64,000 nt of DNA from Henricia sp. BOLD:AAB3569. Lineage: Eukaryota > Echinodermata > Asteroidea > Spinulosida > Echinasteridae. The stretch's first letter is position 1. Every line of letters starts with the position of its first letter. Positions 13,301-64,000 of this stretch are shown here, piece after piece. The translations under genes and the position numbers were made by a program. Where the stretch lies: the NCBI GenBank assembly GCA_037783545.1, contig JBBELK010000315.1, positions 62,001 through 126,000 of the forward strand, read 5' to 3'. The notes beneath the pieces are model-generated. The model saw only the letters and a list, made by a program, of their open reading frames with translations. It was not told where the DNA came from and did no database searches.

Positions 13301-14402
13301 AGATACCTGTGATTAATTTTGTGGAAAACTAAGCTTTTATTAGCGGGGATGTAATTTGTAATGACCGTGGTGCACCAGGGATCCCGATAACGCTTTCGAG
13401 CGCGATTGTGTGTACGCATGTGTGTGACGTAACGTTCCCAACGCCAAAGTGCACCAGGGGCAAGCTAGCGCTCGAAAGCTGCCCCGGTGTCGCGATCTCA
13501 GATGTTCCGCGTGCTCAGATGTTCCGATGACGTCACGGAACATTTCAGCACGTTGCGTGCACGATCTCAGATGTTCCGCGTGCTCAGATGTCCCGGTGTA
13601 AAAGGTACAACTGTCCCCTTGTAAATGTATCCGCGTGCTTACTGGCGCATGGCCTCATCGTACGTACATGTGTTTTTCTCTTAATTTTCTGACTCTCAGA
13701 AAGCCCTGCTGCGTAAGACCCCTTTATTTTTACGTTTTTTTCTCTAAATACGGCGAAACGGCATGTCCGCCGGCCGCCATCTTGCAAAAATGTCACTACA
13801 TCTGCGCGCATCAAAGTACGTACATGGCGCTAATTCTGCTGATCAACTCAGCACTGCCCCTAAACTGGTATAATTACATACGCTGTGCGCATGACGTTCC
13901 GTGACGTGACTACCATATTTGGTCATCGGAACATCTGAGTACGCGGAACATGTGTGTGTGTACGCGGTGTGCAAAACCTGAGCGCAACTGCATGCATTCC
14001 GACGCTCTGCTGTAAACACATAGGAACCGTCCGATCCAGTGTACAGTAGTTCTAAATCCGTGGTACAGCCATAATATCTCGCAGCGATTTTGGGCTCCTA
14101 GGGCGATCTAAACCTTACCTTCCTAGCTCCACTTTTAAATTAAGTTCCATCATGGTAATCCTATATGTTTAAGGCAGCTAGAAGCTCGTCAGCAATGTGC
14201 GCGCGCCAAATTCGTGCCACGAAATACGCAGCTAACCCCATGCCTTTGATATGGAGCTGCGTATCTTGTGGCACGAATTTGGCGCGCGCACATTCTGACG
14301 AGCCTAGCCTGTGCCCTTCCTCCATGGTTTAATATAATGTTTAATATTATGTGCCTTTCCGGTTTCCCGTAATATACTGCCGAAGTGATTACCGTTTGCC
14401 TG
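10400..14402. repeat. Higher-order unit with 7 full 295-bp subrepeats
   Basis: Same plan as its neighbours. The spacer in this unit first shows a 14-bp deletion near 13760, which is shared by the two following units. It also carries a 4-bp insertion (CTGA) near 13297 that is first seen in the preceding spacer. The foldback is at 14184-14303. Confidence 0.93.
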
Positions 14403-17400: not shown

Positions 17401-17815
17401 CTGCATGCATTCCGACGCTCTGCTGTAAACACATAGGAACCGTCCGATCCAGTGTACAGTAGTTCTAAATCCGTGGTACAGCCATAATATCTCGCAGCGA
17501 TTTTGGGCTCCTAGGGCGATCTAAACCTTACCTTCCTAGCTCCACTTTTAAATTAAGTTCCATCATGGTAATCCTATATGTTTAAGGCAGCTAGAAGCTC
17601 GTCAGCAATGTGCGCGCGCCAAATTCGTGCCACGAAATACGCAGCTAACCCCATGCCTTTGATATGGAGCTGCGTATCTTGTGGCACGAATTTGGCGCGC
17701 GCACATTCTGACGAGCCTAGCCTGTGCCCTTCCTCCATGGTTTAATATAATGTTTAATATTATGTGCCTTTCCGGTTTCCCGTAATATACTGCCGAAGTG
17801 ATTACCGTTTGCCTG
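14403..17815. repeat. Higher-order unit with 5 full 295-bp subrepeats
   Basis: This unit is one dimer shorter than its left neighbour and nearly identical to the next unit. Both share a private substitution at the shortened-subrepeat junction (GGTCGAACAATTTC at about 15785 and 19200), so the two are recent sister copies. The foldback is at 17597-17716. Confidence 0.93.
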
Positions 17816-20800
17816 GAAATGGCAGAGAAATTTCAGAGTTTAGGGAAAACTGGGTTGGAGCTTCCTGGCTGCTCCCGCAACCTGTGGCTGTCTGTACGCA
17901 CCTCTTTGGTGTACTCCTGACTCGTGCGCATGCTCAGTCCTTCGGACTGTTGTTGACACGGCCCAGTTTGGGACGGGATTTTGCTCAAAGTGTGGTCCAA
18001 ACGTCGGCAAATTTGGAGGTCGAAATATTTTCCGACGAACTTCAAATTTTGCATGCTCCAAACACTCTATATTGCGCACTTGTCCTAAAAAATTGACAGA
18101 CTTTCGCCGGGAAATGGCAGAGAAATTTCAGAGTTTAGGGAAAACTGGGTTGGAGCTTCCTGGCTGCTTCCGCAACCTGTGGCTGTCTGTATGCATCTCT
18201 TTGGTGTACTCCTGACTCGTGCGCATGCTCAGTCCTTCGGACTGTCGTTGACACGGCCCAGTTTGGGACGGGATTTTGCTCAAAGTGTGGTCCAAACGTC
18301 GGCAAATTTGGAGGTCGAAAAATTTTCCGACGAACTTCAAATTTTGCATGCTCCAAACACTCTATATTGCGCACTTGTCCTAAAAAATTGACAGACTTTC
18401 GCCGGGAAATGGCAGAGAAATTTCAGAGTTTAGAGAAAACTGGGTTGGAGCTTCCTGGCTGCTCCCGCAACCTGTGGCTGTCTGTACGCACCTCTTTGGT
18501 GTACTCCTGACTCGTGCGCATGCTCAGTCCTTCGGACTGTCGTTGACACGGCCCAGTTTGGGACGGGATTTTGCTCAAAGTGTGGTCCAAACGTCGGCAA
18601 ATTTGGAGGTCGAAAAATTTTCCGACGAACTTCAAATTTTGCATGCTCCAAACACTCTATATTGCGCACTTGTCCTAAAAAATTGACAGACTTTCGCCGG
18701 GAAATGGCAGAGAAATTTCAGAGTTTAGGGAAAACTGGGTTGGAGCTTCCTGGCTGCTTCCGCAACCTGTGGCTGTCTGTACGCACCTCTTTGGTGTACT
18801 CCTGACTCGTGCGCATGCTCAGTCCTTCGGACTGTCGTTGACACGGCCCAGTTTGGGACGGGATTTTGCTCAAAGTGTGGTCCAAACGTCGGCAAATTTG
18901 GAGGTCGAAAAATTTTCCGACGAACTTCAAATTTTGCATGCTCCAAACACTCTATATTGCGCACTTGTCCTAAAAAATTGACAGACTTTCGCCGGGAAAT
19001 GGCAGAGAAATTTCAGAGTTTAGAGAAAACTGGGTTGGAGCTTCTTGGCTGCTCCCGCAACCTGTGGCTGTCTGTACGCACCTCTTTGGTGTACTCCTGA
19101 CTCGTGCGCATGCTCAGTCCTTCGGACTGTCGTTGACACGGCCCAGTTTGGGACGGGATTTTGCTCAAAGTGTGGTCCAAACGTCGGCAAATTTGGAGGT
19201 CGAACAATTTCAGAGTTTAGGGAAAACTGGGTTGGAGCTTCCTGGCTGCTCCCGCAACCTGTGGCTGTCTGTATACGCACCTCTTTGGTGTACTCCTGAC
19301 TCGTGCGCATGCTCAGTCCTTCGGACTGTCGTTGACACGGCCCAGTTTGGGACGGGATTTTGCTCAAAGTGTGGTCCAAATGTCGGCAAATTTGGAGGTC
19401 GAAAAATTTTCCGACGAACTTCAAATTTTGCATGCTCCAAACACTCTATATATATTGCGCACTTGTCCTAAAAAATGGACAGACTTTCGCCGGGGACAGG
19501 ATTTTGGTCAAAGTGTGGTCCAAACGTCGGCAAATTTGGAAGTCAAGAAATTTTCCGATGAACTTCAAATTTTGCATGCTCCAAACACTTTATATTCCGC
19601 ACTTGTCACACCCCAGTTTGGGACAGGAAATTGGTCAAAGTGTGGTCCAAACGTCGGCAAATTTGGAAGTCAAGAAATTTTCCGACGAACTTCAAATTTT
19701 GCATGCTCTAAACAGTCTATATTCCGCACTTGTCCTGCAAAATTGACAGACTTTCGCCGGGAAATGGCCGAGAAATTTCAGAGTTTAGGGAAAACTGGGT
19801 TGGGGCTTCCTGACTGCTCCGCAAACCGTGGCTGTCCGTACGCTCCTCTTTGGTGTACTCCTGACTCGTGCGCATGCTCTACATCCATGGTACGTACGTG
19901 CAGTGCTTGCCCGAAAGCGTGTAGGTGCACCAGATGGTGGCACCAACTGTTCCCGACCTCGAGTCGTCGGGACAATGGAGACATGCGCAGATCCGCGTAC
20001 TCGATGCATGAATCGGCAAAAATGACTGGCGCGTCGTATAATGATTTGGGTTGATATTTTTAATGTTCAAGCTTCCACATATAATGCAAATGTTGTAAAT
20101 ATTTTCATGATTTATTTTCATCACTGAGATACCTGTGATTAATTTTGTGGAAAACTAAGCTTTTATTAGCGGGGATGTAATTTGTAATGACCGTGGTGCA
20201 CCAGGGATCCCGATAACGCTTTCGAGCGCGATTGTGTGTACGCATGTGTGTGACGTAACGTTCCCAACGCCAAAGTGCACCAGGGGCAAGCTAGCGCTCG
20301 AAAGCTGCCCCGGTGTCGCGATCTCAGATGTTCCGCGTGCTCAGATGTTCCGATGACGTCACGGAACATTTCAGCACGTTGCGTGCACGATCTCAGATGT
20401 TCCGCGTGCTCAGATGTCCCGGTGTAAAAGGTACAACTGTCCCCTTGTAAATGTATCCGCGTGCTTACTGGCGCATGGCCTCATCGTACGTACATGTGTT
20501 TTTCTCTTAATTTTCTGACTCTCAGAAAGCCCTGCTGCGTAAGACCCCTTTATTTTTACGTTTTTTTCTCTAAATACGGCGAAACGGCATGTCCGCCGGC
20601 CGCCATCTTGCAAAAATGTCACTACATCTGCGCGCATCAAAGTACGTACATGGCGCTAATTCTGCTGATCAACTCAGCACTGCCCCTAAACTGGTATAAT
20701 TACATACGCTGTGCGCATGACGTTCCGTGACGTAACTACCATATTTGGTCATCGGAACATCTGAGTACGCGGAACATGTGTGTGTGTACGCGGTGTGCAA

Positions 20801-52000: not shown

Positions 52001-55000
52001 CGGAGACCACCGAAATTTCGGCAAGAGTCACTCAAAATGACACCTTATTTTTTTACCCAAAGCTTCCGGAGATGGTCACAGACCGAAGAGAAACAGCTCC
52101 AGTCCCCATAAAAATGGTTCTCGACCTAAAAAAAATGGTTTTTGACCTTAAAAAATTAATTTTAAACTCAAAAATATTAGGGCGACACCAAAATGTCGCC
52201 CTATTGAGCAGGTCGCCCTAATATACCTTTTTTACACACGATTTGTCGCCCTAACCTACAATTCATAGTAATTTCTCAAAGACTATAGCACTTCAGACAA
52301 CCATTTCAGGGGAAGTTTTCTACTGTCATGTTTATATTGTGTAAGTTAGGCGTAAATCTGTGAACATTTCTGATTTTCGGTATACCAATCATGTATACTG
52401 CCTTTAATCTTTAAAACCTTTTACTTTTCTTATTTGTACCCAACAGCTCTACTGTGAAGCGAAGGATAGAGTCCGTCGTTGTAAGTATTTTGTTATTCAT
52501 TTTTATTGTATTTTGGTATATTGTTGATGTCCCCTAACATGGCGCGGCCCCTATAAACATGGCGCACTTTACAATGTCTTAGTGCAATGAACAATCTTTT
52601 GCACTTGGCATTAAAAAGAAATAAAGTTCTCAAGTACCTTCATAAATTCCAAAACTAAAATACGGAGAAGAATCATTCATTTACTCGAAATTCACAGGAA
52701 TGTGAAGGCATCGCCGTTTGCTTTAGGTTGACGTGACATAATACATTAGAGCCTGTAATAGGCATTCCCGTGAATAAAATCATACCTATCTGCATTGTGT
52801 CCTGTATCACGGTGCGTGCGTGCAAATGGTCATCACAGGCCACCGTAGCAGGTTTCTCAACATTTCAGCCAATCAGCATCGAGTGCGCCACGTTAAGGAA
52901 CACTCAAGCGATTTTCCGTGAGTAAACTTTTGCGGCATCGGTCAAAGTTTTTCCATTATTTTCGTTATTTGTACTTAGCCAAAATAAGTGAATTACTGTT
53001 TTTCTGGAAGGCATACATGTATATTTCTGCTTAAGTTGTAAAAACCTAAACCTCGTACGCTGACGGATTTTGCTGCAATGTGAATATATTTCCAGTGAGT
53101 TGTTGAAGTGCGCCAAGTTATCCTCCAAAACCTGCTAGTTTTGCTGAGCAAACGATCATTCGTGGCCGCTTGCTCAGCACTTGGCTCACGTGTGCGGTGA
53201 AATTTTGCTGCGTTTTTTGCCTCGCGAGGCCGTGAGCCAAAAATCTTACGTTTTTGATTTCTTTTGCCTCGCGTGGCCAAAATCTCACTGAGCTAAAATA
53301 AATGTAGCTGGCCAATTAAAAACCATTCCTATTCACGCGCGCGGTCCAAAAACTGCGCGCGCCTGCGAACCCCGCCAAGGTCACCACACTTTAGCAAAAG
53401 TTTGGTGACCTTAGCGGTGCCCGCGCGCACTGTACTCATATCACGTGAATAAGGTAGCTGGCCAATTAAATAACGTTTAAAATTTTCACAGTAACTGACA
53501 TTACAATTGCACACTTTTTGCCTTCTTAATTATATTTTACATGTATATAACGCCCAAGTAGATCCCTGTCATTTGATTGGACGATAGCAGGTCACATGGC
53601 ATTAAATAATTTAACCATTTAATGCTACGTCACCACCCGTGCATTTTTGTTCCATACGATTTTTTCCATTGCACGGCGCGCCTGTTTCCATTGCACAACA
53701 CACGCACAGCATACCGGTACATTTTTACTGCAAGTGCGTGTTCGTTTACACGCGTTACATTGCACGACGCTGAAGCAGACACGCGCAAGACACGCGTGTG
53801 GTAGATGAGTCGGATTCGGTCATTGTGATGCGAGGGATGTCGGGGTACTTTTTTCATATTCTCAGGTTGAGGTGAACAAGCTCAATGACCTTGAGAAGTT
53901 GCTACTGTACCTGAAGCTACCCATGGGCATCAATGGGCACTTAAAAAGGTTAGAGGTCATGATGCTTTTGATGTAATGGTAGGATAGCACAAAAATATGC
54001 TTGAGGGCAGGCGTATGTGTACCGTATTTCACAATGTCTGGTTTAGCTTTACCCATGTGACTGGAGTATAGACCGTATCAAATAGCTGCCATCTTGTACC
54101 GGTAGGACAGTTTTTTTTTTTCATGAGGACATTTAAACAACAAAAGTTGCCCCACAAGATGGCAGCTATTCGATACGGTCTATACATGTACATTTTTGCC
54201 TGTTGATCTTTAGCCTTTTAACTGAATATTTAATATGCGTCCATTTTGGTTTTGTTATCACTCTGACAAACATTCTTGCATACATACTGCATTTCTTCTA
54301 CATATGAACCTCTAATTTGGCTCACTAAAGGCCTGTCCGCATTGGACTTTTTTTGGGAAAACTTACCGAGACGATGGGTACTTTTTAAAAATCCAGTACC
54401 ATTTTTAATCCAGTGTGGACAGCCTAAGATGTTTTCCTCTCAATAACTTTTCCCCGAGTCCAGCGGTTACTTTTCCTGGCCAACTGCTGCCCAGGAAAAT
54501 TTACCAGGTCAAATTTTCCCGAGACGATAAGTCCAATGCGGACACATTGAGTCGGTAAAAGTGCATTGGAAGCGTACGTCCGAGCTGTGCAGGTCATACT
54601 GCGAAGGGACACTGCGCATGCTCTCCCACGGTCTCGATAAATTTTCCCGTGTCAAAAAAGTCAAAATGTCGGACAGCAGTAAAATTTTGCCATTTTTCAT
54701 TTTACCATCGTCTCGGTAAGTCCAATGCGGACACGGCTTAAGTGCTTTAGCAGAAAATGGGTTTTATGGAAATATTGGCATGCCTTTTAACAGCATGCAA
54801 CTGAAGCAGAAAATGCGTGCTTACAGGTTTGCAGAAAACGTGTGCTTTTGGGCACCTTCACTGATCATGTGACTATATTTGAATGTTTGTTAATTATGTT
54901 CTCCACTCAGTACATCGCCTTCACTGACGGTCACCCGTGTGGAACAGACGCAGGCTTTTAACTGGATACGCAGCCACATTGAAGAATGCACCGACACATC

Positions 55001-58000
55001 GCTACCTAAACATGAAGTCTATGATGATTATAGGTAAAGTTTAATACAAAAATGCAGCTGTAGTGTGTTGCAATAGGAACTTTTACAATTGAAACTTTTA
55101 CAATTGAAACTTTTACACTTTCCCCTTTTGTGGGAACTCCCTTCCTTATGAAAAATATGAAACATTTCCAGTTTTTGAAAGATGTTTGCAAACTTTGTTC
55201 ACCTGTTGGGAAATGTTAACCCATTTTTTGGGAACGTTGTTTTGGATTTTGAGTCTTTCCACGGTAAAGGGGGCATTTTGGCAACACAGACCATCTTTTC
55301 CAGAAAATACCTTTGTCTGGTCTCAAAATAAAAGAAATAAGTTTCAGCTGTTCTGAAGAGATAACTTGGGCCCCAAAAGGGTTACAAATAGTGTGACAAC
55401 ATGCCTTTCTAAAAAAAACCTGTGTACAAATTCCTAATATACGGGACGAACACTTGTTACATTTTAAGCCGTCCCGGTTACGAGCGTATTTTAGAAAGGC
55501 ATGTTGTCACACTATTTCTTTTATTTTGAGACTAAACAAAGGTATTTGCTGGAAAATATGGTCTGTGCTGCCAAAATGCCCCCTTTACCGTGGAAAGACT
55601 CATACATGATGCTTGATGTGTCATTTAAAGTAAATTAAACAAAACAAAATGCAAAAGAAATCTATACATTTTAATATTTATTTCAGACTTAGGTGGCAAC
55701 CATGTACATGTATCACGCATGGAGCGAAGTCAGATAACACACTGTAAGTTTAGCAATCATGTCTTAGCAATCAAGTGACGAAAAGTGATGTATTTGAGAC
55801 TTGCTAATGGTGCATATTTTCTCCCGATTGTTGTCTCATGCAGGACGCACTGCGATTCAGCCAATCGCCGTGTTCTCAGCCCAGCTGACTTTGGGAAGAT
55901 TATGAAAAATGTCTTTCCCCATGTTAAGGCCCGGCGTCTTGGCACTCGCGGAAAAGCCAGATATCCTTTTTCATGTTGATACTCAAGCCCATGCCACTGC
56001 TTGGAAAACTTGGCCAGACCCACATGTGACACTGTACACATGCACGTAGTAATAGGTCCATACATTTATATCGCACACATATCCATACAAAGAATGCTCA
56101 AGGTGCTGTCACACTAGTATTGATTCTTGCAGCCGATTTCACGAAAGAGTGCGCAGCTTGCGCAACTTTTGAAAAATGGCGCAAGCCCCACAGCTTGCGT
56201 GTTATCATCACTAAATTGTTGCGCAACTTACGCAATAAAAAGTTGCGCAAGTGGGCTTATGCAACTGCGTAAATTTCGTTAAATCGGCTGCTGGTCATTG
56301 GGCTCAATAATATCACTCCTGCTTAAAGGCCCTATGTATTATTTGCAAGATAAAACCTTTTACAGATTCGTGGAATAAGAGTGTAACATATCTAAGGAAG
56401 AGTGTAACAGATCTAAGAAAGAATGTTGGTAAACTAGCCTGAAGAAATTTTAGCTACTTACATGTAGATGCATCAATGCTTCAGAAAACCTCGAAAATCT
56501 ATAAATGGATTTTGTGTACTTTTGGTTAAAAAGTCCCGTGCACGTGACTTTTTTAGAAAACCACCTTCGGTTGTCAATTTCCAGCATGAAAACCCCTGCC
56601 CTCTGGGAGGGGTGGTTACCTCTGTAGGATTTGTTAAGCTCACGTGATAGCCAATCCCAATCAGTGCAATACCGTGTTTCGAGACCACCAGTTGGCTTCA
56701 TAGCTCAATTGGTGGGGCGTTGCCCTCGTTAAGCAGAAGGCCCGCGGTTCGAATCCTGGTAGAGCCAAGTTGTTTTTCACTGCATTCAGATTTCCCAAAC
56801 TCATGGACATTTGTCCATATTTCTATCAAATTAATTCACCCCGGCAGTCCCTGGGTCATTATCCCTAACAAGAAAACAACTATTAGGTAAGACTTAAGGC
56901 TATGCATGGTGGAAAACAGCGTATGTATGGGTTTACGGTAGCACCATGGAATCTCTTCATACATTTGTACTATTCATACAACTTACTCTTTCGCGTTTAG
57001 GTCGACCGGTTATGGGTAAAAACGGCGTATTAGGACGACCGACCGCATTAGGGCGACCGATAGCCGGTCGTCCTAACGCCAAGTGCTTCAAAAACCATTT
57101 TTATTAGGTCACAAACCATTTTCGTCTAGGTCGCAAAACTTTTTTTCAGAGAATTAGGTCGAGAAAATGGGTGTCAATTCATGGGTTTCTTTCGACAATT
57201 TTGTGGTTTTAGTGGTCTCTGTAAGCACTCTACCCAAAACGGTCGTCCTAATACGGGAAAAATAGTTATTTAACTTACTATTCATACTTATCATATTATA
57301 ATGTCTGAAACTGAGGTTTTTAAAATTTTATTTTAAAGCGTACCATGTCTTTAAAGCATAGCGTACATGGACATGGCAACCAGTTTCCGGCAACTGGAAG
57401 CAACTCGCGGCAACTGGGAGCAACTGATCAGTTGCTCGAAAAGGTTTATGTGCGCGCACTTGCAAAGCACTGGCAACTACTGGCAACTGGAGTTGCCGCG
57501 AGTTGCTCATGTTCTACTTTCTGGCAACTAGTTGTACCCAGTTGCGGTCAGTTGCGTTGATGTACGCGTAGTTGCAACTAGTTGCTGTTAGTTGCATGCG
57601 TGTGTCTGAATACGTGCGCGCACATCGACGGCAACTGCAAGCAACAGTTGCTTCGAGTTGAAAGGTACTGTAGGCTTTACCAACTTGCCGTGTCGATGTG
57701 TGCGGTCTGAAAACTGGATGTTCCCAGTTACCGCTAGTTGCGCAACTAATCAGTTTCTGTCGATGTGCGCGCTACGCACACATCGACAGCAACTGATCAG
57801 TTGAGTTGCTTCCAGTTGCAATGTCGGTGTGTTCGTTCGTCCTTCCTTCGAGAAGATGACCATCTTCATGGTGATGAAGATTACTTGCGCGTGAATTGGA
57901 TTTAAGTGAGGGAGAGTTGCGCAGATTGCAGCCTCACTCTCTCGTCCTGGCCTATCTAAATCCAGCGGCAAGACAGAGTCAAGACGGCTGGAGATAAGTC

Positions 58001-61000
58001 GAGATGCAGTGGATGGCCACAGTGTCCTACGTGTCTCACTGTGCCCTAATTGCGCTCCACAACGCTTTGCTCGAGTCGCCTTCCTATCCGTTGAACCAGC
58101 TAGTGGTATCCTACGCACAGTCCACCGAGTCCAGTCTTCACATGCATAGGTAGACAAGCCCTAGCTCACCAAGGGTTTGAAACCCATCGGCTACCCTCAC
58201 CTGGTTTTGCCGGCCAGTCGAAGCCGTTGCCCGGGGTGTGGCTGCTGCTGCATGCGAGCAGCTACTAGGAGCCACAGGTGAGAGTTGAGTGTAGGTGGGG
58301 ACCAAAGCGGTTGAACTACTCCTAAGAGCACGACATGTCCCCACCGTCAGAGGTACTACCCCTCCCAAAACACCCCAAAACACCCCAATGTCGGTGTACG
58401 CTAGGCTTAAGAGCAAGTGTCGGTTCAAGTTCCACATCTTAAAGAGCAAGTCTCAATTTAAGTCTCAAGTCTTTAGAGCATGTCCAAATTAAGCACAAGT
58501 CAAAATGCTTGCTTGATTAGCACAACAATATTTGCTGCCAAAGTTTGCATTTCTCCTTAACTTTCCACACGTATTGCTACAGCGGACTACGCAAGAAGTC
58601 TGATATTCAGCCACCCTCACTGCCACAGATGGATTCTCCACGCAAAATTGGACCAGTAAGTGGTTAGGGTTACTACATGTTTACTTCATTAATATTTATC
58701 AGGCAGTTGCAGCATTGCATTGGTGAACTTAAAGGGGCTATGCAGAGCTGCCAACCCTCCCGAATTTTGGGGAATACATCTGGGAAAACAGGTTCATTCC
58801 AGGACTCTAAACACATCTAAAAAATCCCCAAGGTTGTTAATTGACGATCCAGGAGGGTTTTTATCCATGCCAGTTCTCACAAAATTAGTCATTTTCTGGG
58901 TTGGCAGCTCTGGCTATGTCACGGTTTGCGCATGTGCCAAATCCTTTCATATTTTGACATACGTGCGGGCTCAGATGAAGGTAGTGCAATTTCGTTACAC
59001 AACGCCATTGGTGCGTTTGCTATAGTTGTGTACATCGTGTATTTAACACGTGCCGCATGGGCAGTGTGTTCGTTCATGAGTGTTTACAATACGCAGAATT
59101 CAACTACTTGTGCATCGTGTGCGCGCATTTGTTCGATTTGGCTTCGTGCGCGCTGTAAAATTGCTGTCAGGACCAAATAAGCATGTCAGTTCAGGGGCGG
59201 ATCCAGGAATTTTTCCAGGAGGGGGTTTTGCCACCAGGGAGGGGTTTTGCCCATCAGATTTTTATGTCTGCTTGTTTCGGACAGACGGACACGCAAACAA
59301 TGCATTACATTATATTTTTTTGGTGTCGGAGCAGGGGGGGTTTTTGACCCCCAAAACCCCCCCCCCTCTGGATCCGCGCCTGCAGTTTTGATGGAAAACA
59401 AGGTTAAACAAATTGCTGTATCCAACCATGTCATTCATATCGTTCGGTGCCGTTTCTGTCATGTTTTGTCAAGTTTTTTTATGGGATGAAAAACTCTCTT
59501 TTTAACGACGGCCGCACACACGGTGATGTCGATGTTTGGCGGCTTAAAAATACGGCAAACAGTGCGATTCTAAGTAAAAAGTAATGCATCAGGACATCCT
59601 GGACGTTGACAAGTACACCACTGCCAAAATTACTAAAGAATTATAAGGGATGGCAAAGATTGAATAGGATATGCAAAACCCGGCGACAAAACTTGAAAAA
59701 GTTAGCCACACTTTTTCAAGTTTTGCTGCGCATGTGCAAACCAAGACATACATGTAGCCCCTTTAACCAGCTCCATACATGTATTGCCTGCTTTACCAAA
59801 AAAGTGAACTACTGTACATGTACATGTATACCACAAAAAGCATGTAGTGAGGGGACTGTTGTATATTAGTGGATTTTGGATGATTGGGACTACAGTCTCC
59901 CCTCTTTAATAAAAGGTCATTGTAGATTACCTTGTTATAACAGAAACCTTGTATTATCAGGAATAAAAACAATGGAGAACAGAAGGATTGGTTCGCTCAT
60001 TCCCAGGCCGATTTACAGGGTGCTGGGACAGGCTAATCTGTTTCCGCCCTCATTGGCCAAAATTTTATACGACACGTGATGAGGTCACGTCTTTTTCTTG
60101 TAAAACAGACGTAAAAACAATTTTCCAGCAGACAACGCAGATCACGCACAAAGTACACTCATTTTATTCGTAAATTTGATTTTTGCAATGGATATATAAG
60201 GGTTAGCATACTATTGGGTCAGTCCATGTCAAAGCACCCAATGGGTTAAACCCGACCCTCTCAGATTTTGGTGAAACTTAGTATACTTGTTGATTGGGAT
60301 CCCACAGCACCAAATATCAAAATTTAGATCAATCGGACCAGTGGTTCCGGAGGTAAGGTCACCCGAATTTTGGAATTTTTGATTAAAAGTGGCACGGACG
60401 CCCACCTTTGAACCCTAGTATTTTGGGAACTACTGAGCCAATCTTCACAAACGTGGTGTTGTTGGAAAGGTGATTTGTCAAGGATTCCAAATTTGCCATT
60501 ATTTTTGGGATTGAAGTATGCTGGGGGTGCATTGACCTTTGCTATGACCTCGAATTTGACCTTGTAGATCACGTGACCTTAAAATGACCTTTCCTGAAAT
60601 TTAATCCCCCACTCATTAACTAAAACTTATGAAAGTTTCAGAGGTGTAATATTCTTTGTTTAGCAGTAATACTGATTCAAAAGTTGCCTACCTGCAGAGA
60701 TGATTGATACAGTGCATTACAATGTGCATGGAGCAAGTACATGTACATGTATGTGTGACAATTGAAAGTTGAAGGCAAAAAAACATGGTTTGATTTGCAT
60801 TTCTTTGAACATGTTAATATGCTTTCAAGTTGGCCACAATGTCACATGTTGATTTGTATCAATGTTTTCTTCACAATACTTATTACCGGGGTAGGTTGTT
60901 ATATCATAATTGTATGAATCAATTCACTCGGACACATGTAAAAAATGTTTGCATGTTTTTGTTCAAAAATGCTAGACATGGGCATAGTTATGATTGATAT

Positions 61001-64000
61001 GTCTGCTGCCTTTGATACAGTGGATCACCCTATTCTTCTTCAGCGTCTTGATGAAAACTTTGGTCTCTGCGGCACAGTCCAGCAATGGTTTCAGTCATAC
61101 CTAAGTCGCAGAACCAGTCAAGTGAACATCAAAGGGTCTCTTTCCTCTGAAATGCAACTTAGGTATGGTGTCCCGCAGGGATCAGTCATTGGACCACAAG
61201 TTTTCATTTATTATTACTTTGTTATTGGGCATATCATTCGTAAATTTCCCACCCTGCAATACCACATTTATGCGGACGATGTTCAGCTATTTTGTTCATT
61301 TGACCCAACAATCCCTGGTGAAGCTACATGTGCTTTGTTCACGCTCAGTCGGTGTATCGAGGCACTGCAATCTTGGATGCTTCAGAATAAACTCCGGATG
61401 AACCCGGAGAAGACCGAGTTCTTCATTGCCTCATCACCAACTAATTTTGCACGTTTAAAACATCTTACTCTTCATCTTGACCAAGTGGACATTTTTCCGT
61501 CTTCTAAGGTTAGAAACCTGGGTGCCATGTTTGATAGTGACATGAAAATAAATGCTCACATCACCCAACTCTGCCGGTCTTTGAATTTTCAGATCCGAAA
61601 CCTCAGCAGAATCCGAAGGTTCCTTAATTTCGATGCCTGCCACAATGCAGTTCGTTCATTAATTCTGTCCAGATTGGACTACTGCAATTCTCTGTTGAAT
61701 GGTCCGTCACAGAAGAACATATTTCGTCTGCAAAAAATACAAAATAGGTGTGCCAGACTCATTTTTAGGAAACCCCAAAGTGCACATGTAACACCACTCC
61801 TGCGTGAGCTTCATTGGCTCCCAGTTGCTAAACGTATTCAATTTCGCACTCTTGTCCACACATACAAGTCATTAAATAATCTTTCTCCAGGTTACCTCTC
61901 AGCTCTTCTAGGAATTAGGAAGTCTTCATCATATTCACTACGATCTCAAACTAGCACATGTCTTGATATTCCCAGATCACACACTCAAGCTGGCGATAGG
62001 GCTTTTTTCCGTCTCTGCTCCTCGCCTTTGGAACAACTTGCCAGCTACAGTCAAGAATTCAACTAACATCACTTCTTTCAGAAAGTCTCTTAAGACCCAC
62101 CTCTTTCTCTAGGATTTGAGCGATTCGATATCCCTCATTTCTTTTTATCTCCCTGCACTTTGTATCCTTCGGTTAAAAGCGCATTATAAATGCCATATAT
62201 TATTATTATTGCTATATATATAATATCAAGCATGTGCTTTTTCAGTTGATTAACAATAGAGCCTGAAGAGATATTGACAATATTTTGTTATTAGTTACCA
62301 TGCACCATTTGTGCAAGTGCATTCAAATTGTGGGATAGGGGATGTATTTTTTTTCCTTCACAAGCAAGCACTCGCACCCGCAATAGGGGTGGGGATATTT
62401 TACATGTGTACCAGTATGTCTATCCGCAATAGGAGGCCTATTTTTTTGCGTGAGAATGCACAGTATGGGTTCGTCCGGCATATACAGAGCGATTTCCAAA
62501 CTCCCCCCCCCCCCCCCCCCCCTTCCCCCCCCCCCCACTCCCCCACTCCCCCACCCCCCCCACCCCACCCCCCCCCCCCCCCCACCCCACACCCCCCCCC
62601 CCCCCAGCCAAAAATTTAAAAATTCGGGGGACCTTACCTCCGGAACCACTGGTCCGATTGATCTAAATTTTGATATTTGGTGCTGTGGGATCCCAATCAA
62701 CAAGTATACCAAGTTTCACCAAAATCAGAGAGGGTCGGTTTAGAATGTCATTTTTTTTGGGTGATTTGACATGGACTGACCCTATTTATTAATTATTAGT
62801 CTGGCAGCAAGCAACCCACAATGCTCCGCGGGCCTGCATACCGTTTATGACCTTTGCGTCACGTGTTTCCGTCACAGAAATCTGTGCAAACAGATTAGCC
62901 TGTCCCAGCACCCTGTAAGGCACGCTGGGAATGAGCGAAAAGGATTGGGAACTAAAATCTTCCTTGTTATAAAGTTAGCCCCGTCTACTGACATGGTGTT
63001 ACTTAACGGCCACGGGGCTACCTTTGTGAGGTCCTCACCAGTTCCTTCACTACATGTAATACGTGGCAATTACATGGGACAGCAATCTGCAGGCTCCGTC
63101 TTCTTGGTACTCTCATGGTGATGTTGCTTTCTTAAAGGTCAAGACGCTGAATGGCTGGAAGGGGCTGGGGACCCCCTTTATGGATTGTTTTGTGACTTTG
63201 TGTGACACTTACAATGTCATGTCTCTTACTGGATACATGGCTCCCATGTGTCTCCCCAAAACATTGTGGTTTGTCACAGTGGGAGTTTAAGGAACTGTTG
63301 AGTTTTTGTGGTACACCCTATAAATTCACCGGCAGGATGTTATTGGACAAAAATGTGCAGTTTTGAAGCATCCTGCCAGTTTCAGAATTTGGATTTTTGG
63401 TTTATAATTTGTTGTGGTTTTTGTCTTTGCAGAATGACTTACTTCACAGATCTTCCCCATGTAAATGCAGCGCTGAGCAGCAACAAGCCGACCTGGCCAA
63501 CACCATCGTCATCAGCGAATGGGCAGAGAAGATCTTTTCCACTCGTTTTCAAACCACCGATGACCTAGCCTATTATCTTGCAAGCAATAAATATGTCTCA
63601 AACTCCATGGCGACCTACACAGTACTGTCCAGTAGAAGGGAAAATTCAGCATCTTCAACGAGGTCGTTACGACTGGATGCGGGAATGGTGAAGCCTCCCA
63701 TCACACCCGAAGAGCGGCACAAAGAGACGCAACACCAGCTTCAGAAAAAGATCCAACAGCGACAACTCAGCAGAATGAGGGATGAGCAAAACCGACAAGC
63801 TCAGAGCCTGGCTCTAGATAGGAAGGGCCAACAGGGGAGGAAGCTTGTCAATAGGAGTCACAGTATGCCAAATGAGAGGCAAATGAATGCAAGAGTTGAA
63901 TCTCAGGTGGGAGGGGCAAGGGGTCATGAAGGCCTCCTCAGCGACAGCCAGAATGGCTGTAGACAGGGTGACCAACAAACGAACACAGTCAGGTTACAGA
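21970..64000 (+). CDS. RFX7: RFX5/RFX7-type winged-helix transcription factor, N-terminal part (spliced; continues past window)
   Basis: Seven exons (21970-22082, 52447-52480, 53866-53948, 54911-55033, 55844-55960, 58571-58655, 63433-64000+) join in frame into 374 residues. Residues about 31-76 are a helical segment with [13 protein letters not shown], the counterpart of the LYLQLP region of RFX5/RFX7. Residues about 91-166 are the RFX winged-helix DNA-binding domain: [56 protein letters not shown]. Residues 172-177 (PSLPQM) fit the PxLPx[I/L/M] motif by which RFX5 and RFX7 bind RFXANK/ANKRA2 ankyrin repeats. A helical block with SEWAEKIF and [18 protein letters not shown], then a Q/R-rich coil ([11 protein letters not shown]), follow as in RFX7. 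RFX proteins bind X-box DNA in the nucleus; RFX7 works with ANKRA2/RFXANK. The start has a strong context (A at -3, G at +4). The C-terminal half is missing. Assignment to RFX7 rather than a pre-duplication RFX5/7 gene is inference. Confidence 0.9.
22379..22403. promoter_or_regulatory. NRF1-type palindrome next to a CTCF-like motif
   Basis: TGCGCATGCGCA (22379-22390) fits the NRF1 consensus exactly. It overlaps AGCGCCCTCTGTTG, which resembles the reverse of the CTCF core. Another partial NRF1 site lies at 22975-22986. The location about 300 bp into intron 1 suits a proximal regulatory site, but function is inference. Confidence 0.4.
23827..23976 (+). other. Unassigned exon-like block with poly(A) signal
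   Basis: After a pyrimidine-rich acceptor (TTTTCTTTTCTCAG at about 23792) an open frame from ATG at 23827 gives 49 residues ([20 protein letters not shown], then [18 protein letters not shown]) before TGA. AATAAA lies at 23961, inside the end of this frame. The sequence is not repetitive in the window. I do not recognise the product. It could be a terminal exon of a transposon gene lying within the surrounding inverted repeat, or a retained exon relic. Confidence 0.25.
24202..24330. mobile_element. Foldback MITE, AGGCTCGTC family (diverged)
   Basis: TTAA at 24198-24201, then GCAGGCTCGTCGTTGAGCG. The arms pair through AATTTGTGCCATGAAATTC and GAATTTCGTGGCACGAATTTG, and GACGAGCCT closes the element. 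It is the same family as 40315-40446 and the satellite foldbacks. Confidence 0.7.
25408..25533. repeat. Hairpin with long paired arms
   Basis: TGGGCCACTAGACCCAG and TGAGTCGTTGGCCCTG on the left pair with CAGGGCCAACGACTCA and CTGGGTCTACTGGGCCA on the right around an A/T-rich loop. It is a probable foldback element, with no clear target duplication. Confidence 0.7.
26288..26834 (+). mobile_element. TTAA-flanked MITE, AGGGCCCC family
   Basis: TTAA at 26284-26287 and 26835-26838 flank ends AGGGCCCC and GGGCCCT. The inner sequence (ATCAATGAAATCTATGCT, AATATGCATATTCATGACC, AACTGGGGG) is shared with copies at 29226, 44085 and 48380. No coding capacity. TTAA targets are typical of piggyBac-like (also Kolobok) transposases acting in trans. 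Confidence 0.85.
27031..28271 (+). mobile_element. TTAA-flanked element, AGGGAACACACCGGCTT family
   Basis: TTAA at 27027-27030 and 28272-28275. The ends are AGGGAACACCGAC and (reverse) AGGGACACACCAGC. Inner blocks CGAAATAGACCCATACC and CAAATTTGGCCGTTTT recur in the copy at 34520-35286; another block recurs near 33940-34075. It is 1.24 kb long with no intact gene. Confidence 0.75.
28276..28569. other. Intronic stretch without recognised feature
   Basis: A/T-rich sequence with a TTG-repeat patch (about 28445). No gene or repeat boundary could be supported. Confidence 0.5.
28570..28712 (-). mobile_element. tRNA-related SINE, copy 1 (minus strand)
   Basis: Read on the minus strand, a B-box-like GGGTTCGAACCC is followed by GTGGATTGGGTTTGCAGTCC and GTGGGTTTTCC. 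A second copy in the same orientation lies at 37975-38165. The shared layout (B box, then a conserved body with GGGTTTTCCTCCC) is that of a Pol III-derived SINE. Confidence 0.65.
28713..29149. other. Intronic stretch without recognised gene
   Basis: Only a short direct repeat, GCGCGATCGTCACA at about 29053 and 29073, stands out. Confidence 0.5.
29226..29790 (+). mobile_element. MITE, AGGGCCCC family, 3' end lost
   Basis: It starts after TTAA (29222-29225) with AGGGCCCCTTATT and tracks the family to about 29790, where the copy diverges and lacks the right terminus. The host sequence GTACGCTAGGCTTAA also occurs without the MITE at 58397, confirming TTAA as the insertion site. Confidence 0.78.
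29791..30312. other. Intronic stretch rich in TACATGTA-type palindromes
   Basis: No gene seen. Repeated ACATGTAC and TAGGCCTAC words occur from 30115 to 30300. Confidence 0.5.
30313..30808. mobile_element. TIR element with CACCCTGTTTACACT ends
   Basis: The left end CACCCTGTTTACACTTGATC and right end (reverse) CACCGTGTTTACACTGGTC form the TIR. Multiple GATCCCGAGCTCGGGATC palindromic words lie inside. A second copy is at 44696-45169. The right part was carried into the following tandem duplication. Confidence 0.75.
30851..30944 (+). other. Exon-like segment, copy 1
   Basis: TATTTTTGCAG precedes 94 nt that are open in one frame ([20 protein letters not shown], then CKTFRPFY), followed by TATG|GTTAGT. 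The splice-like flanks and even composition suggest a former or real exon. No family was recognised, and it does not fit the RFX frame at this point. Confidence 0.35.
31202..31716. mobile_element. TTAA-flanked MITE, AGGCCC family, copy 1
   Basis: TTAA at 31198-31201 and 31717-31720. The ends are AGGCCCTGTAGATGATC and (reverse) AGGCCCAGTGGATCATTTGC. Subterminal GTCATTGCAAATGAT also occurs near 47619 and 48052. Confidence 0.8.
32160..32253 (+). other. Exon-like segment, copy 2 (duplicated)
   Basis: Same 94 nt and flanking splice-like signals as 30851-30944, carried by the tandem duplication. No coding difference is seen between the copies. Confidence 0.35.
32492..33016. mobile_element. TTAA-flanked MITE, AGGCCC family, copy 2
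   Basis: TTAA at 32488-32491 and 33017-33020. This copy was produced by the tandem duplication and not by a new insertion. Confidence 0.8.
33037..34515. other. Intronic stretch with degraded repeats only
   Basis: Part of it (about 33940-34075: TTGTTAATTTTAAGC, CAAGGATGCTGGCATGC) matches the inner part of the 27031-28271 element. The rest shows no supported gene. Confidence 0.5.
34520..35286 (-). mobile_element. TTAA-flanked element, AGGGAACACACCGGCTT family (inverted copy)
   Basis: TTAA at 34516-34519 and 35287-35290. The ends AGGAACACACCGGCTTAC and (reverse) GGGAACACACCGGCTTCG are a clean TIR. The inner order is reversed relative to 27031-28271. Confidence 0.82.
35360..36124. mobile_element. 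Long-TIR element, GAGTCTTTCC/GGAAAGACCC ends, 4-bp duplication ATTT
   Basis: ATTT at 35356-35359 and 36125-36128 flanks TIRs GAGTCTTTCCACGGTAAAGG and (reverse) GGGTCTTTCCACAATAAAGG. The relative at 55251-55601 shares arms and inner sequence. Confidence 0.85.
35717..35930. mobile_element. Foldback MITE inside the GAGTC element
   Basis: Arms GGGGCCAATTTCATAAAGC and GCTTTATGAAATTGGCCTC pair, with AGCAGAAAAATTTGCTT inside. The relative at 55251-55601 lacks this segment, showing the uninterrupted CCGGTTACGAGC. Confidence 0.82.
36231..37974. other. Intronic stretch without recognised gene or element
   Basis: Rich in ACATGTAC/TGTACATT/CCGGTA words (37130-37450). No splice-bounded exon fits the RFX protein. 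Confidence 0.5.
37975..38165 (-). mobile_element. tRNA-related SINE, copy 2 (minus strand)
   Basis: Shares AACCCAATCCACATAC, GATTCGAACCAGGGTC and CACAGAGGTGGAAGGC with 28570-28712, but its B box is more decayed. Confidence 0.6.
38361..38549. repeat. Foldback repeat with GCAGCCGATTTCACG ends
   Basis: CTGCAGCCGATTTCACG and CGTGAAATCGGC form the ends, with TTGCGCAAC and GCAAGCTAC words inside. A related copy is at 56129-56291. Confidence 0.65.
38771..38960 (+). repeat. Dispersed repeat, copy 1
   Basis: ATTGCCTCTGTTG, CTTGGCCGTGGTGC, GGAAGTGCCCTTTTTAA and GGCAGTGCCCTTTCAGTGAC recur in the same order at 50886-51030. No terminal repeats found. Confidence 0.75.
38982..39439. other. Intronic stretch without recognised feature
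   Basis: Nothing supported beyond TACATGTA-type words. Confidence 0.5.
39444..39880. mobile_element. Long-TIR element, GGGTCTGTCC ends, 4-bp duplication ATGT
   Basis: ATGT at 39440-39443 and 39881-39884 flanks GGGTCTGTCCACAGTAATGG and its exact reverse complement. 437 bp, non-coding. Confidence 0.85.
40022..40100 (+). promoter_or_regulatory. TATA-type core promoter candidate
   Basis: TATAAAAG (40022-40029) sits in a GC-rich flank, with a CTCTCACTGT initiator-like stretch about 30 bp downstream. No downstream frame is recognisable. It may be the promoter of a solo LTR or other element. Confidence 0.3.
40315..40446. mobile_element. TTAA-flanked foldback MITE, AGGCACAGGCTCGTCAGC family
   Basis: TTAA at 40311-40314 and 40447-40450. 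The two arms pair almost completely (AGGCACAGGCTCGTCAGCAA and reverse; GCCAAATGTGTGCC/GAGCACGAATTTGGC). It is the cleanest member of the family whose relatives lie in the satellite spacer. Confidence 0.9.
40451..41215. other. Intronic stretch without recognised gene
   Basis: No exon fits the RFX protein and no element boundary was found. Confidence 0.5.
41216..41560 (+). mobile_element. Two tandem tRNA-related SINE fragments
   Basis: TAGCTCACCTCCGTGGTAGAGC with CTTGGATTAAAATCCTG (41262-41330) resembles a decayed tRNA with A and B boxes. AATGCTCAGCTGGCAGAGC (about 41502) is a second copy, preceded by the same GGGAGT leader. Neither folds as an intact tRNA by eye. Confidence 0.45.
41603..42360. 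mobile_element. hAT-like non-autonomous element
   Basis: The ends are CAGTGTTGTAGTCGAGTC and (reverse) CAGTGTCGTAGTACTCAAG. The flanking 8-mers TTCATTTT (41595-41602) and TTCATTTC (42361-42368) differ at one base. CAGTG...CACTG ends with 8-bp duplications are hAT traits. A CGAGTC-rich minisatellite (41618-41702) makes up the left subterminal region. No transposase. Confidence 0.85.
42361..44068. other. Intronic stretch without recognised gene
   Basis: TACATGTA/TACCGGTA-rich. Two GGAGAGGTACCGG-type words at about 43652 and 43674 form a short direct repeat. No coding exon fits. Confidence 0.5.
44085..44641 (+). mobile_element. TTAA-flanked MITE, AGGGCCCC family, nested
   Basis: TTAA at 44081-44084 and 44642-44645; TIR AGGGCCCCTGAAATG. 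It interrupts the TIR of the surrounding element exactly at GAAATTAA, which is intact at the other terminus and at 40173. Confidence 0.9.
44696..45169. mobile_element. TIR element with CACCCTGTTTACACT ends, nested
   Basis: Ends CACCCTGTTTACACTTGATC and (reverse) CACTGTGTTTACACTGGTC, the same family as 30313-30808. Confidence 0.78.
45713..45966. mobile_element. Long-TIR element, GGGTCTTTC ends, 4-bp duplication TGCA
   Basis: TGCA at 45709-45712 and 45967-45970 flanks GGGTCTTTCTATAAATTAGG and its reverse complement. 254 bp. Inner GTGTCCC words also occur in 50163-50591. Confidence 0.85.
45971..46613. other. Intronic stretch without recognised gene
   Basis: No supported feature. Confidence 0.5.
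46614..46910 (+). mobile_element. pogo/Tigger-like terminus (fragment)
   Basis: CAGTAAACTCCGGCTAAGTC follows TA, as expected for pogo-group TA duplications. Several TAAGTCGGC/CAAGTCGGC subterminal repeats follow. An ATG frame near 46842 ([18 protein letters not shown]) is too short to assign. The right end was not found. Confidence 0.4.
46981..47123. mobile_element. Foldback MITE with AGGGCTGCGTTCGAA ends
   Basis: AGGGCTGCGTTC and GAACGCAGCCCT ends, with paired ACGCGAACATT/AACGTTCGCGT and CAAACGTTTGC inside. No clear target duplication. Confidence 0.75.
47124..48043. other. Intronic stretch with partial AGGCCC-family MITE ends
   Basis: GTCATTGCAAATGATACAAT with GGGCCTTTAA (47619-47648) and GTCATTGCAACTGATGTAGG with GCTTTAA (48020-48043) look like right ends of AGGCCC-family elements whose left ends I cannot place. 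Confidence 0.5.
48044..48375 (-). mobile_element. TTAA-flanked MITE, AGGCCC family
   Basis: TTAA at 48040-48043 and 48376-48379; ends AGGCCCATTG and GGGGGCCT. The right TTAA is shared with the next element. Confidence 0.75.
48380..48961 (-). mobile_element. TTAA-flanked MITE, AGGGCCCC family (minus strand)
   Basis: TTAA at 48376-48379 and 48962-48965. In reverse it follows 26288-26834 from AGGGGCCCC...ATTTAGG to the diverged AGGGCT end. Confidence 0.87.
48966..50162. other. Intronic stretch with one SINE fragment
   Basis: About 49640-49735 is a minus-strand fragment of the tRNA-headed SINE (GGGATAATGTCCCAGGGACT, AAACTCAAGGACATTTGTCC). The remainder shows no gene. Confidence 0.5.
50163..50591. 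mobile_element. Long-TIR element with GGGCAATTCCC/GGGAATTACCC ends
   Basis: The arms continue as AAATTAGGGGTCC, the same words as in 45713-45966. Flanks ATAA and ATAC match at three of four bases. Confidence 0.72.
50635..50797. mobile_element. Small TIR element, AAGGCCCGTC end
   Basis: AAGGCCCGTCTACACGATCC on the left; GGAAACGGGCC closes the right. The interior repeats GTTGGAGTATG. Boundaries are approximate. Confidence 0.5.
50886..51030 (+). repeat. Dispersed repeat, copy 2
   Basis: Same order of blocks as 38771-38960 (TTGCCTCTGTTG, GGAAGTGCCCTTTTTAA, GGCAGTGCCCTTTCAGTGAC). Confidence 0.75.
51031..52446. other. End of intron 1: GGGCGA-rich stretch, no exon seen
   Basis: From 51765 to 52250 the words GGGCGAT and TCGCCC recur in both orientations (for example AGGGCGACACC and GGTCGCCCTAA), suggesting a degraded foldback. 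The acceptor of exon 2 lies at its end. Confidence 0.5.
52447..52480 (+). CDS. RFX7: RFX gene coding exon 2 (34-nt microexon)
   Basis: A short exon between CAACAG and GTAAGT encodes [11 protein letters not shown]. It completes a split Ser codon from exon 1 and hands on in phase 0 to [11 protein letters not shown]. It is identified by reading-frame continuity and alignment to the KTVQSKVDCIL region of RFX7. Confidence 0.85.
53304..53470. mobile_element. Insertion between 17-bp direct repeats
   Basis: GTAGCTGGCCAATTAAA at 53304-53320 and 53454-53470 brackets 133 bp with partly inverted ends (CCTATTCACG/CGTGAATAAG) and an inner hairpin AAGGTCACCA/TGGTGACCTT. Confidence 0.65.
53866..53948 (+). 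CDS. RFX7: RFX gene coding exon 3
   Basis: The acceptor is CATATTCTCAG and the donor is AAAAAG|GTTAGA. It encodes [20 protein letters not shown] and GINGHLK, and ends in a two-base phase. The LYLKLPxG motif is a hallmark of the RFX5/RFX7 subfamily and is absent from RFX1-4, RFX6 and RFX8. Confidence 0.9.
54071..54180. mobile_element. Short TIR element, GACCGTATC ends, flanked by TATA
   Basis: Arms with AATAGCTGCCATCTTGT pair with ACAAGATGGCAGCTATT. TATA at 54067-54070 and 54181-54184. Confidence 0.75.
54329..54737. mobile_element. TIR element, GTCCGCATTGGAC ends, TTAA-type site
   Basis: Left AGGCCTGTCCGCATTGGAC and right (reverse) GCCGTGTCCGCATTGGAC. Flanks CTAA (54325) and TTAA (54738-54741). 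Lies in intron 3. Confidence 0.75.
54911..55033 (+). CDS. RFX7: RFX gene coding exon 4 (first half of DNA-binding domain)
   Basis: It lies between CTCCACTCAG and GTAAAG. It encodes residues 77-118, including [13 protein letters not shown] and [12 protein letters not shown], the opening helices of the RFX winged helix. It ends TATAG in a two-base phase that accepts either the next constitutive exon or the 57-nt candidate exon. Confidence 0.93.
55251..55601. mobile_element. Long-TIR element, GAGTCTTTCC ends (intron 4)
   Basis: GAGTCTTTCCACGGTAAAGG and its exact reverse complement bound 351 bp related to 35360-36124. Flanks TTTT and ATAC do not match. Confidence 0.82.
55687..55743 (+). CDS. RFX7: Candidate 57-nt in-frame cassette exon inside the DNA-binding domain
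   Basis: The flanks are strong: a TTTTAATATTTATTTCAG acceptor and ACACT|GTAAGT donor. The 57 nt have no stop in the required phase and would add [19 protein letters not shown] between the DDYR and HCDSANRR parts of the domain. The constitutive join without it gives exactly the family's spacing, so this is an optional exon at best. No other RFX known to me has such an insert. Chance occurrence is possible. Confidence 0.45.
55844..55960 (+). CDS. RFX7: RFX gene coding exon 5 (second half of DNA-binding domain)
   Basis: The acceptor is GTCTCATGCAG. It encodes residues 118-157: [31 protein letters not shown] and LGTRGKA. The [15 protein letters not shown] block is diagnostic for RFX proteins. 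It ends GCCAG directly before ATATCCTTTT, the AT-AC donor. Confidence 0.95.
56129..56291. repeat. Foldback repeat with GCAGCCGATTT ends (U12 intron)
   Basis: GCAGCCGATTTCACGAA pairs with TTCGTTAAATCGGCTGC. Inner TTGCGCAAC words occur as in 38361-38549. Confidence 0.75.
56694..56870 (+). mobile_element. tRNA-headed SINE (U12 intron)
   Basis: The first 74 nt resemble a tRNA: GGCTTCA and TAGAGCC acceptor arms (one mismatch), A-box-like TAGCTCAATTGGTGG, and B-box GGTTCGAATCC. A 7-nt anticodon-like loop CTCGTTA would read CGU. The T-stem is broken, so it is a SINE head and not a working tRNA. The body continues AAACTCATGGACATTTGTCC. Confidence 0.7.
57028..57256. repeat. Inverted repeat with ATTAGGACGACCG ends
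   Basis: CGTATTAGGACGACCG and CGGTCGTCCTAATACG enclose further AGGTCG words. No clear duplication flanks it. Confidence 0.6.
57366..57830. repeat. GCAACTG-rich inverted-repeat DNA
   Basis: Many GCAACTGG/CAGTTGC words on both strands, plus CACACATCGACAGCAACTG, which recurs at 29160-29180. It is a probable TIR element carrying subterminal repeats. Confidence 0.55.
57831..58385 (-). mobile_element. 555-bp retroposon (SINE-like) with 12-bp target duplication
   Basis: CAATGTCGGTGT lies at 57819-57830 and 58386-58397. The uninterrupted site (TTGCAATGTCGATGTACGCT) is seen at 29200. On the minus strand it has GGTTTCAAACCC (B-box-like) and ends in GAAGGAAGGACGAACGAAC, a short-repeat tail. No coding frame. 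Confidence 0.8.
58571..58655 (+). CDS. RFX7: RFX gene coding exon 6
   Basis: It follows the AC acceptor and precedes GTAAGT. It encodes [20 protein letters not shown] and then [17 protein letters not shown] closes the winged helix. PSLPQM at residues 172-177 is at the place where RFX7 carries its ankyrin-binding PxLPxL motif. It ends in phase 0. Confidence 0.93.
58656..59191. other. Intron 6 stretch without recognised gene
   Basis: Nothing supported. Confidence 0.5.
59192..59382. mobile_element. MITE with CAGGGGCGGATCCAG ends
   Basis: CAGGGGCGGATCCAGGAATTT and CTGGATCCGCGCCTG termini enclose 191 bp with G- and C-runs. The terminal type is common among short DNA-element remnants in animal genomes. 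Confidence 0.8.
60950..62215 (+). pseudogene. 5'-truncated L2/CR1-like LINE reverse transcriptase
   Basis: An open frame from 60945 (373 codons) encodes the central and C-terminal parts of a non-LTR reverse transcriptase: [12 protein letters not shown] (residues 17-28), [10 protein letters not shown] (75-84), catalytic YADDVQLF (109-116), and the downstream [14 protein letters not shown] block typical of the group. The endonuclease and first RT motifs are absent. A run of six T at 62003-62008 marks a frame change: the expected C-terminal segment continues in another frame to TAG at 62110. The 3' end, GCGCATTATAAATGCC followed by ATT repeats, is typical of L2-like LINEs. Not a host gene. Confidence 0.88.
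62502..62605 (+). repeat. Poly-C tract
   Basis: About 104 bp of almost pure C with a few A and T. Proline-rich or glycine-rich open frames across it are by-products. Confidence 0.97.
62947..63432. other. End of intron 6, no further exon seen
   Basis: The frame of exon 6 passes directly to exon 7 in phase 0. Nothing here is needed to complete the protein. Confidence 0.5.
63433..64000 (+). CDS. RFX7: RFX gene coding exon 7 (runs off the window)
   Basis: The acceptor is TTGTCTTTGCAG and the frame stays open to the edge (189 codons). Residues about 205-245 ([33 protein letters not shown]) match the conserved block after the DNA-binding domain in RFX7 (CEWAQKVL, SHYIGTKSMA). A basic, glutamine-rich stretch ([18 protein letters not shown]) follows, like the QQLQRKIQKKQQ region of RFX7. 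The remainder is polar and low in complexity, as expected of the disordered RFX7 tail. Confidence 0.9.

Follow-up and report, generated by a model that had tools for sequence, protein, structure and literature searches.

A predicted U12-type AT-AC intron splits the RFX DNA-binding domain of an echinoderm RFX5/RFX7-subfamily gene with same-codon GT-AG introns in its paralogues

Animal U12-type introns with AT-AC termini, as exemplified by human SMYD2 in Table 1 of PMC7367187, combine a ATATCCTTT donor with a branch site of the CCTTRAC kind and a terminal AC. Introns whose class differs at a single position are also on record, both between Trichinella and C. elegans (in the AT-AC intron comparison of PMC2846911) and among plants, insects and fish (PMC7367187, Table 1). 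Here we describe a 64-kb stretch of Henricia sp. DNA (bases 62001-126000 of contig C315, hereafter the window, from a genome searched over 740.7 Mb) that very probably harbors a genuine intron of this kind, at positions 55961-58570, within a gene of the RFX5/RFX7 subfamily of transcription factors. The intron shares the signals of its animal counterparts and, being in phase 2, also conforms to the avoidance of phase 0 by U12 introns; unlike known animal AT-AC examples such as SMYD2, however, it sits in an RFX5/7 gene, and unlike in the orthologue cases, the contrast in intron class is found between paralogues of one genome. An earlier reading made from the letters of the window (the sequence-only reading) had called the AT-AC subtype rare, a description to be set against the 26% share of AT-AC among the U12 introns annotated in human (PMC7367187, Table 2). 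A full-text literature search, whose reach did not extend to supplementary gene lists and databases, returned no report of RFX genes with U12 or minor introns. The intron itself belongs to a known type, and the added interest lies in the class contrast between the paralogues.

Splice signals and gene context

The consensus words for U12-type donors and branch sites are RTATCCTTT and TTCCTTRAC, respectively. At the junction between exons c and d (Table 1), the intron (5′ end ATATCCTTTTT, 3′ end CTCCTTAACTTTCCACAC) matches them at nine of nine and eight of nine positions and closes with an AC at 58569-58570, whose end lies 10 nucleotides (nt) from the branch A. Donor, branch site and terminal AC are thus all found at the bases where the sequence-only reading had placed them, and its description of near-perfect minor-spliceosome signals holds. 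The donor word agrees with Table 1 of PMC7367187 and with the AT-AC intron comparison of PMC2846911.

Joining exons c and d across the intron completes an arginine codon (AG + G) ahead of YCYSGLRKK, in an open and gap-free reading that completes the RFX DNA-binding domain (Pfam PF02257, 101.9 bits over profile positions 1-78 of 79), in agreement with the earlier claim that the intron divides this domain. Retention of the intron lowers the domain score to 89.5 bits and yields a protein that ends ...GKARYPFSC before a stop, so that intron removal would be required for the domain end to be made. The sequence-only reading had gone further, stating that the intron controls production of the final wing; removal is needed for it, but nothing indicates that this step is regulated or rate-limiting.

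How much weight the signals carry depends on where they stand. The exact word RTATCCTTT occurs once in the window, both strands counted, and about 0.6 occurrences of ATATCCTTT are expected on one strand from base composition (8.9e-6 per position); by itself the donor word is not above chance, and it gains weight by standing where protein homology sets the end of an exon. A branch site with at most one mismatch, followed by an AC 8-20 nt past its A, occurs at a rate of 2.7e-4, this intron's own match being counted in. The product of the donor and branch/AC rates, taken by hand, is ~2e-9 per junction and ~7e-8 over the 29 junctions that preserve the length of the product, or about 2e-7 when the observed donor rate (2.3e-5) is used instead, giving an overall figure of about 1e-7. 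Only one of these 29 junctions is AT-AC, and none is GT-AG.

On these grounds, 55961-58570 is very probably a true U12-type AT-AC intron. That it is actually spliced, and by which factors, we infer from the signals: the donor ATATCCTTT would be bound by U11 and then by U6atac, the branch site CTCCTTAAC near the 3′ end would be bound by U12, and the minor spliceosome would join the two codon parts into the arginine ahead of YCYSGLRKK.

Table 1. Features of the window (positions count from its first base) and RFX paralogues elsewhere in the genome (C numbers denote contigs)
Feature	Location	Strand	Remarks
Coding exon a	53866..53948	+	Part of RFX5_N region; AG/GT flanks
Coding exon b	54911..55033	+	DNA-binding domain start; AG/GT flanks; ends in phase 2
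Coding exon c	55844..55960	+	Mid-domain THCD...RRLGTRGKA and the first two bases (AG) of the codon that follows
Predicted U12-type AT-AC intron	55961..58570	+	2610 nt; phase 2; between exons c and d
U12-type 5′ splice site ATATCCTTT	55961..55969	+	9/9 to RTATCCTTT
U12-type branch site CTCCTTAAC	58553..58561	+	8/9 to TTCCTTRAC; branch A at 58560
Coding exon d	58571..58655	+	Domain end YCYSGLRKK and linker; ends in phase 0
Last coding exon e	63433..64000, continuing past the window	+	Begins EWAEKIF...; stop at about C315:129104
tRNA-like sequence, perhaps a tRNA-derived SINE	56694..56767	+	Inside the U12-type intron; Rfam RF00005, 37.8 bits
RFX1-3-like gene	C329 (L001)		
RFX4-like gene	C40 and C158 (L007, L008)		
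RFX6-like gene	C40 and C158 (L014, L015)		
Further RFX gene	C23		

The five coding exons have consistent phases and join into an open frame of 1359 residues that extends into the contig beyond the window; the 5′ coding exon or exons upstream of exon a, for which no search was made, are not among them. Exon b is 53% identical to a piece of human RFX7 (tblastn), exon d brings the PF02257 match to profile position 78 of 79, and exons c and d joined together match both this profile and the structures PDB 8zjr and 1dp7. Of the four PDB sequences matched, none of them an RFX7, human RFX5 scores highest (128.2 bits, E 2.3e-36), well above RFX1 at 50.7 bits. A match to the RFX5 N-terminal region (PF18326) is borderline, at 25.2 bits on the open exon frame and 23.8 and 21.3 bits in spliced products against a cut-off of 25, the first part of this region not having been located. 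Members of the RFX5/RFX7 subfamily are described in the family overview of PMC2533330 as being without the B, C and D dimerisation domains, and a Pfam scan of the 1359-residue product returned PF02257 and PF18326 alone, Pfam's coverage of B, C and D being unchecked.

By these similarity scores the gene is an RFX family member of the RFX5/RFX7 subfamily, RFX5 and RFX7 being taken together. A genome search for RFX5/7-type sequences gave four matches, three of them exons of this gene and the fourth a weak one at the RFX1-3-like gene, which makes C315 the sole RFX5/7-type locus that the search shows. Of 3 pattern matches in viral contigs and 35 in GTDB genome contigs, none was confirmed as a relative, an outcome to be expected of an animal gene.

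Same-codon introns in the RFX paralogues

A genome search with PF02257 gave 13 matches, which comprise the window gene, a fragment on C917 and the paralogues listed in Table 1, the paralogues being named by sequence motifs. The RFX4-like and RFX6-like copies are near-identical on C40 and C158 and are perhaps uncollapsed haplotypes; the C917 fragment, considered as a further RFX gene, was set aside as it looks ARID2-like by eye.

These genes align free of gaps from RRLG to the junction, and the introns of the window gene, the RFX4-like gene and the RFX6-like gene are all placed at column 101 in phase 2. The two paralogue introns have GT-AG termini: that of the RFX4-like gene starts with the donor GTAAGCTAAA (GTAAGC) and ends with the acceptor CCCGCAG, and that of the RFX6-like gene starts with GTACGTATAA (GTACGT) and ends with CTTGCCAG. 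Their donors match the U12 consensus at 5/9 (RFX4-like, counted by hand) and 4/9 (RFX6-like) positions, and the closest approaches to the branch consensus within the final 45 nt are 6/9 and 7/9, the latter no more than 3 nt from the intron end; we take both to be major-class introns. In the RFX1-3-like gene, a GT-AG intron, also in phase 2, lies at column 97, upstream of the shared position by exactly 12 nt, and the C23 gene is without an intron at this position and has an SFGK border in common with RFX4/6.

The intron at the column-101 codon most likely predates the split between RFX5/7 and RFX4/6, its class now differing between the two, and a common origin of the same-codon introns in the RFX5/7, RFX4-like and RFX6-like genes appears rather probable. 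An old minor intron would then have switched to the major class in RFX4/6, and RFX5/7 would have retained the minor class; the direction of the change in the sister genes, from U12 to U2, is the one held likely in section 14 of PMC7367187, a change from which, according to the same paper, AT-AC introns are believed to be mostly spared.

The most serious competing explanation is that the introns were inserted independently at the same position in RFX4/6-like and RFX5/7-like genes and that no class conversion took place. Such a double gain at a favoured site is suggested by the codons at the junctions (AG|G, AA|G and AA|A), which resemble favoured insertion sites, and by the RFX1-3-like intron, which interrupts a further AG|G at a distance of 12 nt; however, codon and phase match exactly in two further genes, and a hand estimate puts the uniform-chance match at ~1% (a domain of ~237 nt with two introns per gene), a value that would be higher if sites are restricted. 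Independent insertion is thus the less probable account, and a shared ancestral intron is preferred.

A wider history may be sketched on the same basis, albeit tentatively and as something we consider possible but doubtful: the AT-AC intron, which precedes the final strand of the domain, would be ancestral to RFX5/7 and RFX4/6, and possibly to all animal RFX genes, with conversion in place in RFX4/6, a conversion that moved the site by 12 nt in RFX1-3, and survival of the AT-AC form in RFX5/7. The offset of the RFX1-3-like intron recalls the Trichinella AT-AC introns compared in PMC2846911 (n=3), one of which corresponds to a U2 intron shifted by three residues in C. elegans, the other two having no C. 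elegans intron. Two points weigh against the conversion reading preferred above: in that comparison AT-AC introns were lost as commonly as they were converted, and the age assigned to the intron is read from the paralogues of one genome.

Human RFX5 likewise has the RFX DNA-binding domain and offers a comparison outside this genome. By residue numbering, its junctions c.353/354 and c.555/556 presumably equal the exon b/c and d/e borders in both place and phase. A further human junction, should there be one and whatever its class, would by the same numbering fall at c.473/474, where the window intron stands. The variants described in PMC9585253 put introns of this gene at c.116/117, c.150/151, c.233/234, c.353/354, c.555/556 and c.757/758. 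That paper names the c.353 intron intron 6 and the primers around c.757 E9, which would place three exons, with an additional junction among them, between positions c.354 and c.757; its numbering is not firm, as the primers around c.353 are named E5.

Alternative junctions and the minor spliceosome

The GT-AG introns of the paralogues leave the U12 call standing, because no GT-AG pair is found among the length-preserving junctions of the window gene. One competitor pairs the U12 donor with the AG at 58581-58582 as acceptor (AT-AG), either as the sole site or as an alternative one, and would drop four residues, turning RYCYSG into SG. This join keeps the frame and its AG ends 22 nt past the branch A; it nevertheless reduces the domain score from 101.9 to 83.9 bits, and the AC at 10 nt better suits the usual spacing, so that we regard use of this acceptor as very unlikely. 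Another AT-AG junction, 55973/58582, keeps both length and frame, and its donor ATGTTGATA is not U12-type and its product reads RYPFSG in place of RYCYSG.

Alternatively, an ordinary U2 intron could have its true sites a few bases off, with the AT-AC signals present by chance. According to section 17 of PMC7367187, odd annotated termini often do have a canonical site within a few bases, and stop-free, in-frame GT-AG or GC-AG pairs are present within 45 nt; however, all of these pairs delete or replace conserved domain residues, nine of them in the case of the sole length-preserving GC-AG pair (55934/58543), and the U12 signals would have to coincide at the junction by the small joint chance given above, making this explanation very improbable. 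That the locus is a pseudogene whose intron has no working role, an idea left room by a gene model known from genomic sequence only, is hardly credible for the one RFX5/7-type locus that the genome search shows, with five phase-consistent exons, a long open frame and a full DNA-binding domain.

The AT-AC intron thus remains the preferred reading, and it presupposes a minor spliceosome, which this genome likely has because both U6atac and U4atac are encoded. Genome searches found one full-length copy of U6atac (138 bits; 46 of 21,781 candidates scored) and two copies of U4atac (85.5 bits each; 49 of 43,492 candidates scored), and re-scoring was done for U6atac and one of the U4atac copies. Against the reading stand the searches for the U12 small nuclear RNA, as well as the derivation of the intron call from genomic sequence. 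The Rfam genome search for this RNA, in which 44 of 89,056 candidates were scored, gave no match, and neither did a U12 27-mer with up to three mismatches; a U12 17-mer with one mismatch gave four matches in the genome (two for the control), none of which reaches E 0.01 against the Rfam model of U12. In our reading, a search of limited power, divergence of the gene or a gap in the assembly would account for this outcome.

Surrounding sequence and significance

The transfer RNA (tRNA)-like sequence inside the intron, perhaps a short interspersed element (SINE) of tRNA origin, is not called a tRNA gene by ARAGORN, which finds none in the window. Dense direct and inverted GGCAACTG/CAGTTGC repeats, seen by eye, occupy positions 57380-57830 of the same intron, and the following intron, which separates exon d from exon e, contains a retrotransposon reverse-transcriptase open frame at 60942-62066 (RVT_1, 76.3 bits). 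Farther upstream, positions 1794-19734 carry recurring, satellite-like blocks of tandem arrays, in which a 295-bp unit about 98% alike between copies stands beside units of 127, 144 and 199 bp.

Elsewhere in the assembly, contig C955 carries three COX1 copies spaced 16,221 bases apart, its mitochondrial genome apparently having been assembled as a head-to-tail concatemer. Compared with human COX1, 335 residues of a 447-residue stretch are identical, AAA falls at Asn in 8/8 cases, ATA at Ile in 12/21 and at Met in 0/21, AGA/AGG at Ser in 4/6, and TGA at Trp in 10/11. This pattern is that of the echinoderm and flatworm mitochondrial code; taken with so close a likeness to the human protein and with the RFX genes present, it suggests that the host is most likely an echinoderm.

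Minor introns are thought to become major ones over time, and a codon that carries either class in sister genes offers a tidy case in which to study this change. Should the wider history proposed above be true, one domain in one genome would record retention, conversion in place and conversion by site shift; moreover, the output of the RFX5/7 gene may be suggested as a candidate measure of how active the minor spliceosome is in echinoderms.

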